Positions 30,731 to 59,653 of a stretch of 64,000 nt of DNA are shown piece by piece. The translations under genes were made by a program, and so were the position numbers. The notes under the pieces were generated by a model that was given only the letters and a program-made list of their open reading frames with translations, was not told the origin of the DNA and ran no database searches. Every line of letters begins with the position of its first letter. Position 1 is the stretch's first letter. The stretch comes from Desulforamulus putei DSM 12395 (lineage in GTDB: Bacteria > Bacillota > Desulfotomaculia > Desulfotomaculales > Desulfotomaculaceae), in the NCBI RefSeq assembly GCF_900129195.1, contig NZ_FQUY01000018.1:1-64000 (forward strand), read 5' to 3'.

Positions 30731-30931
30731 ATGCCCGAAGTAGCATGCACCGTAAACAACTGCAAGTACTGGACCCAAAATAACCTTTGCACCGCTAAAC
30801 AAATCATCGTCCAAAACGATTCTCAGGGTGGCGGTATCAGCCCCAATGCCAGCTTGCAAAACCTGACGGCAACTCCTGCCAACAGTATTGATGACACCTG
30901 CTGCCAAACCTTTAAACCTGTTAACGGATAA
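30731..30931 (+). CDS. DUF1540 domain protein
   Basis: The 66-residue protein starts MPEVACTVNNCKYWTQNNLCTA, the Cys pattern (CxxNNCxYW...C) of DUF1540, a small Clostridia/Bacilli family of unknown function thought to bind metal. Two more Cys lie in DDTCCQTF. AGGAGG precedes the ATG. It has its own terminator and appears to be a single gene. Function unknown. Confidence 0.85.
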   Translation: MPEVACTVNNCKYWTQNNLCTAKQIIVQNDSQGGGISPNASLQNLTATPANSIDDTCCQTFKPVNG

Positions 30932-57825: not shown

Positions 57826-58194
57826 GTGAAATTAAGTAGAAAAGATCTGGGCAACAGGGGAGAAGATGAGGCTGTCAAATTGCTTTCCAGCATGGGCTGG
57901 CAGGTGCTTGAAAGAAATTATCGCTGCCGTATCGGGGAACTGGATATCGTGGCCAGGGATACCACCGGTGCGCTGGTATTTGTGGAGGTGCGCTCCCGCA
58001 CCGGTGTAAGCCACGGTTTACCGGAAGAGAGTGTGGATTACAGAAAACAAAACAAGCTCAGGATGCTGGCTCAACAATACCTGCTGGCCCGCCCAAAGCT
58101 TGCCAATAGTTCCTGCCGCTTTGATGTGGTGGCAGTTTATTTTGATGAAGATGGGAAGAAAAAATTTATCAGGCATATTCCCAATGCCTTGTAA
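57826..58194 (+). CDS. yraN: YraN/UPF0102 family endonuclease-like protein
   Basis: The 122-residue protein has the restriction-endonuclease-like fold: GNRGEDEAVKLL, then RIGELDIVARD and LVFVEVRSRT, forming the E-x-D-EVR/K pattern. GTG at 57826 follows GAGGT; a longer frame from 57730 begins without a site. The family is universal and may act in DNA uptake or repair; role not established. In many genomes it lies beside rnhB and comM/yifB, as loosely here. Confidence 0.93.
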   Translation: MKLSRKDLGNRGEDEAVKLLSSMGWQVLERNYRCRIGELDIVARDTTGALVFVEVRSRTGVSHGLPEESVDYRKQNKLRMLAQQYLLARPKLANSSCRFDVVAVYFDEDGKKKFIRHIPNAL

Positions 58195-58206: not shown

Positions 58207-58461
58207 CTAACTGCCTTGCGCATACCTGCAGAACTTCTTGCACTCCGGTTTGAAAAAAGGAGAAATACAGTCTTCAGGGTAACCCGGCAGGCTTTCATAG
58301 CAGGCCGGGATATTCTTCGGCCGGGAATAGTAACAGGCCACACAGGCCGGCGTGCAGCCGTATCGTAAACAGGCCGTTCCACGGACCCCGAAGCCAAACT
58401 CTTGATAGCAACTCGGGGGACAATCACATCGATGATAGTTTAGATTTGGTCCGCCACCCAT
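58207..58461 (-). CDS. Unrecognised Cys-rich 84-residue protein
   Basis: The protein begins MGGGPNLNYHRCDCPPSCYQEF and holds 11 Cys in 84 residues: CDC, PPSC, CLRYGC, ACVAC, PAC, DC, ECKKFC. The spacing suggests metal or disulfide binding, but I recognise no family. ATG at 58461 lies 8 bases after GGAGG, and the reading frame ends near the yraN stop, convergent to it. A small membrane protein gene lies just upstream, probably in the same transcript. Not rich enough in paired CxxC to call a ferredoxin. Confidence 0.75.
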   Translation of the reverse strand: MGGGPNLNYHRCDCPPSCYQEFGFGVRGTACLRYGCTPACVACYYSRPKNIPACYESLPGYPEDCISPFFKPECKKFCRYAQGS

Positions 58462-58489
58462 TTCAAGGTCCTCCTTATATATTAATAAT

Positions 58490-58648
58490 TTATTTGCCCG
58501 GTCTTTTAAACTGCATGGTTCCCAGGACAAAAAAGGCAATGCCCAGGAGACCAAACTCAACTTTCTGATCCACAAAGAAACTTATAATAATCAGTAGTAT
58601 TCCGGCGGTCCGCAATGATTTCGAAATGCTGGGGCGTTCCCGCTGCAT
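58490..58648 (-). CDS. Small membrane protein, 52 residues
   Basis: The frame starts with ATG 6 bases after AGGTGA and reads MQRERPSISKSLRTAGILL at the N-terminus. A basic head is followed by two hydrophobic segments (AGILLIIISFFV and FGLLGIAFFVLGTMQF) and a basic tail. It lies 28 bases before the Cys-rich gene. No family is recognised; a two-helix hairpin membrane protein is likely. Confidence 0.6.
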   Translation of the reverse strand: MQRERPSISKSLRTAGILLIIISFFVDQKVEFGLLGIAFFVLGTMQFKRPGK

Positions 58649-58699
58649 GAATCATCACCTCTGGTACTAATTTTAGCCTATGTTAACACGTAGAGATGA

Positions 58700-58765: not shown

Positions 58766-59653
58766 TTACTTGTGCCATAATAACCGGTTATCCTGAATGG
58801 TCGTTTTAGCGCGTCCCTGTTCATATAAATAACTGAGAAACGCCACAACGGCAGTTCGATACAGGAAAAACAGTCCGGGGTTGGCTGCCGTAACGCCCAG
58901 GTGAGAGCATAATTGAGACACCAATCCCTCCGCTTCCCAAGACTCGGAAAGCCGGCTCTCAATTTGTTCGATCAGCTTTAGTACTTTACTGCGGTTGTAC
59001 TCGATGTCAGAGGTGATATCTTGGGAAGGTTCCCCGTGTGAGGGGACATACCATTCACAGGATAAAGACCCTAACTTTTCCAAGCTTGCCAGGTATGCCT
59101 GAATATCCACATTGTAAGGAATGCCGTGTTTTTCCAATAGACTTCCGCTTATGTAAGCATCTCCCGCAAATAAAACCCCGTCATACAGCACCCCGATTTG
59201 ATCCACGCTGTGCCCGGGAAGGGCCACAATCTCCAGGTGCAACCCGCAGAGGTTCACAGGGCCGGCTTGCAGTTTTTCACCCACTGTACTGGGCTTGGCC
59301 AGCAAAAACTTATTGCGCATTTCCTTCCAGGGGGAAGCCCCGCCGGTAAGCATAACGGGTTCAAAGAGCGGAGTTTCAATAAAAGGTGTTTCTAACGGCG
59401 ATGCACAGACAACTGCACCGGTGCGAGCAGTTATGAATGGGTTTCCCCCGATATGATCCGCATGGGAATGGGTATTAACAATGGCTTTTATGCGAAAACC
59501 TTCCTTTTCCACTTCCCGCAGCAGTTTTCTAGCTACGGATTCATCAATACCGGTGTCGATGACGATGGCTTCCCCGGTATCGGAAGCGATGACCCCAATA
59601 TTGGTGGGTGCTTTAAAAACATAAACGGAATTCTTTATTTTTTCCAGTGCCAA
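58766..59653 (-). CDS. MBL-fold metallo-hydrolase
   Basis: The 295-residue protein has the metallo-beta-lactamase motif NTHSHADHIGG near residue 60, LPGHSVDQIGVLYDGVLFAGDAYI with the third His and bridging Asp, and a fourth His in PSHGEP. After residue 215 a helical C-terminal domain may bind substrate. Substrate cannot be read; glyoxalase- or thiol-related hydrolases are possible. GGGGGGTAA lies upstream of the ATG. Confidence 0.85.
   Translation of the reverse strand: MALEKIKNSVYVFKAPTNIGVIASDTGEAIVIDTGIDESVARKLLREVEKEGFRIKAIVNTHSHADHIGGNPFITARTGAVVCASPLETPFIETPLFEPVMLTGGASPWKEMRNKFLLAKPSTVGEKLQAGPVNLCGLHLEIVALPGHSVDQIGVLYDGVLFAGDAYISGSLLEKHGIPYNVDIQAYLASLEKLGSLSCEWYVPSHGEPSQDITSDIEYNRSKVLKLIEQIESRLSESWEAEGLVSQLCSHLGVTAANPGLFFLYRTAVVAFLSYLYEQGRAKTTIQDNRLLWHK

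Follow-up and report, generated by a model that had tools for sequence, protein, structure and literature searches.

A family of small proteins with nine invariant cysteines, accompanied in one bacterial family by a short hydrophobic protein

The window analyzed here (64,000 nucleotides; contig C40, one of 65 in a genome of 3.1 Mb) carries on its minus strand two adjacent small genes, encoding a hydrophobic protein of 52 residues and a Cys-rich protein of 84 residues, and sequence comparisons indicate that these are genuine conserved families uncatalogued in the libraries that we searched. We regard it as about evenly balanced whether the Cys-rich protein is a small metal protein of the cytosol (with iron-sulphur or zinc) from a lineage-restricted family, which in the window's own bacterial family is tethered to, or regulated together with, a membrane hairpin; tethering by the hairpin is rated lower than this reading as a whole.

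The gene pair and its upstream region

The pair and the elements around it, together with a further small Cys-containing protein used for comparison below, were located as follows, with neighbors here and elsewhere named from their translations by eye unless a Pfam match is given.

30731-30931, plus strand: DUF1540 protein, 66 residues (PF07561, E=2.5e-13)
57826..58194, plus strand: YraN (UPF0102), convergent neighbor (PF02021, E=6.8e-29)
58207..58461, minus strand: 84-aa Cys-rich protein, second gene of the pair; 11 Cys, nine invariant within the family
58470..58476, minus strand: ribosome-binding site AAGGAGG of the Cys-rich protein; GGAGG in 10 of 10 family genomes
58490..58648, minus strand: 52-aa hydrophobic protein, first gene of the pair; two hydrophobic stretches, low dN/dS
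58656..58662, minus strand: ribosome-binding site AGAGGTG of the 52-aa membrane protein, read directly
58672..58688, minus strand: conserved element TGTTAACATAGGCTAAA immediately ahead of the pair, with core GTTAMCATAGGCTAA
58700..58734, minus strand: terminator-like hairpin with T-rich tail, folding at -13.1 kcal/mol; absent from a simple terminator scan
58766..59653, minus strand: metallo-beta-lactamase-fold hydrolase, preceding gene (PF00753, E=9.8e-29)

A preliminary description of this region had given the span of the pair, the lengths of both proteins, the 11 Cys, the gap of 28 bases between the genes and a ribosome-binding site for each, all of which we recovered, although the conserved Cys number only nine. 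Each of the ten genomes in the window's family (f1, presumably Desulforamulus; nine genomes from one genus and one from a second) carried the pair, with a common strand, a common order and a gap of 12-35 bases. Among 60 genomes comprising the window's own and its relatives, the Cys-rich protein was matched in 18 and the membrane protein in 10. Nei-Gojobori comparisons gave dN 0.042 and dS 0.76 (dN/dS ~0.05) for the Cys-rich gene against genome G009, and dN 0.043 and dS 1.18 (dN/dS ~0.04) for the membrane gene against G003, while synonymous sites were saturated in several other comparisons. Because the pair is conserved throughout f1 and synonymous substitution greatly outpaces amino-acid replacement, both frames are considered real genes, which answers the question of conservation that the preliminary description had raised for each. 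For the Cys-rich frame, the list of open reading frames offers a longer version with a TTG start, while all ten relatives share the ATG of MGGG behind the ribosome-binding site. Co-transcription of the two genes in f1 is likely.

The 52-aa protein has two hydrophobic stretches, with 17-residue hydropathy peaks of 1.78 at residues 11-27 and 1.62 at 30-46, in agreement with its earlier description as a two-helix membrane protein, and is therefore probably a short membrane hairpin. In the 113-genome class set, strong matches (6e-24 or better) came from the ten f1 genomes only; the next match had an E-value of 0.0039, and the spread of matches over 59 of the 113 genomes at E<=1 was read as hydrophobic-sequence noise. 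A free-standing frame of 49 residues with the same layout in G053 matched weakly (E 0.0067) and lies on a different contig from the Cys-rich gene of that genome. The two-helix part of seven of the ten 52-aa members resembled the NfeD membrane domain at E<=1 (best E 0.00045), but the window's protein scored 17.3 bits against a curated Pfam cut-off of 26, over only 33 residues, and NfeD identity was rejected in favor of a general likeness among hydrophobic hairpins.

Upstream, the conserved element (TGTTAMCATAGGCTAAA) sits between the terminator-like hairpin and the start codon of the pair. Its core was found exactly ahead of the pair in seven of the ten f1 genomes, and the only exact copy in the window's genome is the one at this position. 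The element is probably a promoter -10 region or an operator, perhaps with the two overlapping; no good -35 hexamer was evident upstream of it in the window. When five whole genomes were searched with one mismatch allowed, exact copies occurred only ahead of the pair (three genomes), and the two one-mismatch places elsewhere were fewer than the four matches of a reversed control pattern, so that a regulon marked by the element was rejected. The ten f1 leaders had no common RNA fold, and Rfam searches returned only matches far below gathering scores.

In the window, the terminator-like hairpin comes after the hydrolase gene and before the pair. The hydrolase, recognized by its HSHADH motif, is upstream of the pair in eight of the ten f1 genomes, and its gene probably forms a separate transcript. 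In one of these genomes (G007), an additional hydrophobic frame of 101 residues without a Pfam match (L059:4928-5233) intervenes between the pair and the hydrolase gene.

The Cys-rich family

A profile of the Cys-rich protein matched 19 of the 113 genomes of the class, each at 4.9e-37 or better, and these carriers belong to four families only (f1, f3, f9 and f12). At E<=10 the same search had matches in 51 genomes, and those below the strongest 19 were treated as noise, the next (0.00128) coming from a frame interrupted by four stops. In a sample of the phylum, 7 of 398 genomes were matched, six of which are known carriers; the seventh (G342, 7.7e-4) has three internal stops and was dropped as noise. 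Presence is patchy, with the gene in four of the six listed g10 genomes and one of the two listed f12 genomes.

Neither family had been recognized in the preliminary description, and neither has an accepted relative in Pfam, NCBIfam, PHROGs or PDB sequences. Scanning the Cys-rich members against Pfam gave two matches, which were rejected; Rubella_E2, present in 4 of 17 members with a best E of 1.6e-4, was taken as an artefact of Cys/Pro-rich composition. Plasmid and phage collections yielded Cys-rich matches only at E 3-6, that is, no relative, and viral contigs yielded none. In the literature covered, which included passages of PMC4759654 and PMC4137172, no paper was recognized as treating the Cys-rich protein.

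Seventeen sequences from the four families, with 48-93% identity to the query, align without gaps between the first and last invariant Cys. The alignment has 25 invariant columns. Nine are Cys (C18, C31, C36, C40, C43, C54, C65, C74 and C78), spaced C-x12-C-x4-C-x3-C-x2-C-x10-C-x10-C-x8-C-x3-C, and the other 16 are P15, G25, R27, G28, R33, G35, P38, N50, P52, A53, P59, G60, S67, K75, F77 and A81. The remaining two Cys of the window's protein, C12 and C14, are not conserved among the 17 members. The highest 19-residue hydropathy of the protein is 0.71, and since it has no long hydrophobic stretch, nothing resembling a signal peptide or anchor is apparent. Two AlphaFold models, differing in their first sequence, had mean pLDDT values of 43.9 and 52.1; both are unreliable, which precluded checking of ligand geometry.

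Small iron-sulphur proteins resemble the Cys-rich protein in size and Cys content, yet it has no CxxCxxCxxxCP motif of the bacterial ferredoxins and matches none of the Pfam families. The segment C36-x3-C40-x2-C43, invariant in 17 members, is spaced like the CxxxCxxC motif that holds the cluster in radical-SAM enzymes. Unlike those enzymes, the protein matches no Pfam family, and its 84 residues are too few for a TIM-barrel-type domain of ~200 residues. It also differs from metallothioneins in that repeated CxC/CxxC clusters do not fill the chain: there is one CxC (C12 and C14, not conserved) and one CxxC (C40 and C43). DUF1540 proteins, of which the window encodes one, are likewise small, Cys-containing and functionally uncharacterized proteins of spore-forming (clostridial) anaerobes, but the 84-aa protein has no PF07561 match and differs in length and Cys spacing.

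Genomic context in the other families

The Cys-rich gene has different neighbors in each of the other three families, which carry it without a strong match to the 52-aa protein. In f3 it lies beside a convergent acyl-CoA ligase gene, with a small upstream frame that has a sub-threshold ribbon-helix-helix match. In f9, it is flanked by genes for a DNA methylase or a DNA-binding protein and, on the opposite side, by a beta-oxidation/Etf cluster, and in f12 it adjoins a Crp-type regulator. Since the neighbors differ between families, the context names no partner for the Cys-rich protein, and together with a promoter of its own in f3 this implies that the gene travels as an independent unit. Its pairing with the 52-aa protein appears, from the genomes compared, to be peculiar to f1, and because the 52-aa protein is confined to that family, a membrane link is not a general function of the Cys-rich family.

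In f9, a convergent hydrophobic frame of 63-68 residues ends 11 bases from the Cys-rich gene. It represents a small membrane-type protein different from the 52-aa partner in f1, and the L051 copy had no Pfam match. The frames, all convergent to the Cys-rich gene, are:

L051:6883-7083
L052:6951-7151
L053:6503-6709
L054:2977-3168

The f3 promoter, TTTAC[CT]-N17-TATAAT (sigma-A-type), is directly ahead of the Cys-rich gene in all four f3 genomes. In three of them (L048, L050 and L062; genus g4), its -35/spacer part is complementary to the ribosome-binding region, so that in L050, for example, CCGGGTTTTG pairs with CAAAACCCGG. The letters of the pairing arms differ among the three genomes yet still match, with fold z-scores of -2.8, -5.9 and -2.7, while that of the fourth genome, L049 from another genus, was +0.7. 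Judging from these sequences, RNA reading through from upstream would hide the binding site, and RNA from the gene's own promoter would be made without the first arm. This arrangement resembles that of T4 gene e.

Possible functions of the Cys-rich protein

Metal binding, a cytosolic location, the promoter type, co-transcription and any contact between the two proteins are inferences. Metal centres are favored over disulphides because nine Cys are held at fixed spacing in a small protein with no evident signal or anchor, and because the hosts belong to a group of strict anaerobes. Specifically, the nine Cys would hold one or two metal centres: the triplet C36, C40 and C43 (C-x3-C-x2-C), joined by an additional Cys, would be suitable for a [4Fe-4S] cluster, and C18, C31, C54, C65, C74 and C78 would complete that first cluster and supply the ligands of a second one or of a zinc site. 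The protein could then act as a small electron carrier, a cluster or metal carrier, or an accessory subunit. The f3 promoter, present in four of four genomes, is of the kind expected for vegetative expression, and the protein is probably made in ordinary growth from a local promoter. Only in f1 could a co-transcribed membrane hairpin hold it at the membrane or act as its regulator. Against the metal reading, the Cys-rich protein has no sequence relative of known structure, and its Cys spacing is not known to match any iron-sulphur or zinc signature in full. An odd number of Cys and patchy presence (19 of 113 genomes) would also suit a role without metal. A stronger version, in which a new nine-Cys metal-protein fold with one or two Fe-S or Zn centres is peculiar to one class of spore-forming anaerobes and a dedicated hairpin acquired in f1 carries it to the membrane as an electron or metal relay, we think rather unlikely.

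Disulphide bonds in a structural protein made late in sporulation, such as one of the spore coat, would use the Cys differently. Many spore-coat proteins are small and Cys-rich, the spore-coat ATPase SpoIVA is encoded by all 19 carriers, and the upstream element holds CATAGGCTA, which fits the sigma-K -10 pattern CATAnnnTA. SpoIVA does not discriminate, however, because it is present in 104 of the 113 class genomes, against 19 for the Cys-rich gene; moreover, no sigma-K -35 element was evident at the right distance and the f3 promoter is of the sigma-A type, and we find this explanation decidedly unlikely. High Cys content would fit a thiol-based sensor or redox regulator that works with the hairpin and binds no metal, as would the pairing in f1 and the Crp-type regulator adjoining the gene in another family. 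We strongly doubt it, given that nine fixed Cys exceed the needs of a thiol switch and that the membrane partner is absent outside f1.

Location could point to a minor subunit or an assembly factor accessory to the neighboring respiratory complex (Nuo), since Nuo-type genes (named by eye from translations) and yraN adjoin the pair, the latter in convergent orientation in all ten f1 genomes. According to PMC4759654, the Nuo genes of Desulfotomaculum reducens are Dred_2036-46, a location in keeping with the Nuo-type genes next to the pair; no mention of Dred_2032 to Dred_2035 was found in the literature covered. Such a role is very improbable, as the pair is on the strand opposite to nuo and yraN, and the other three families place the Cys-rich gene beside acyl-CoA ligase, methylase or Crp-type genes. 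Finally, a precursor of a modified peptide (a RiPP of the SCIFF type) would be small and Cys-rich too, but the conserved positions seen here extend over most of the chain instead of a C-terminal core. No radical-SAM maturase was noticed among the neighbors scanned by eye in the loci read, and we find this idea hardly credible.

A positive link between the Cys-rich gene and sulphate reduction was not supported by DsrD, which was over the cut-off in 5 of 19 carriers versus 47 of 94 non-carriers (raw counts that ignore kinship). None of the ten f1 genomes, G006 among them, gave a DsrD (PF08679) match, and in f3 matches were below the cut-off only. The f1 DsrD may be very divergent, or our tentative equation of G006 with D. 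reducens may be wrong, as PMC4759654 lists a putative DsrD (Dred_3185) for D. reducens.

The preliminary description had suggested a membrane-linked metal or redox role. Its metal component is plausible, the nine-Cys core being consistent with it, while the membrane link did not hold as a general rule and would apply as an f1-specific arrangement. Otherwise the Cys-rich protein is one among many small uncharacterized Cys-rich proteins of anaerobes. The family is well conserved and absent from the libraries searched, its hosts are anaerobes relevant to sulphate and metal reduction, and its invariant Cys pattern offers a clean target for testing a new metal protein.
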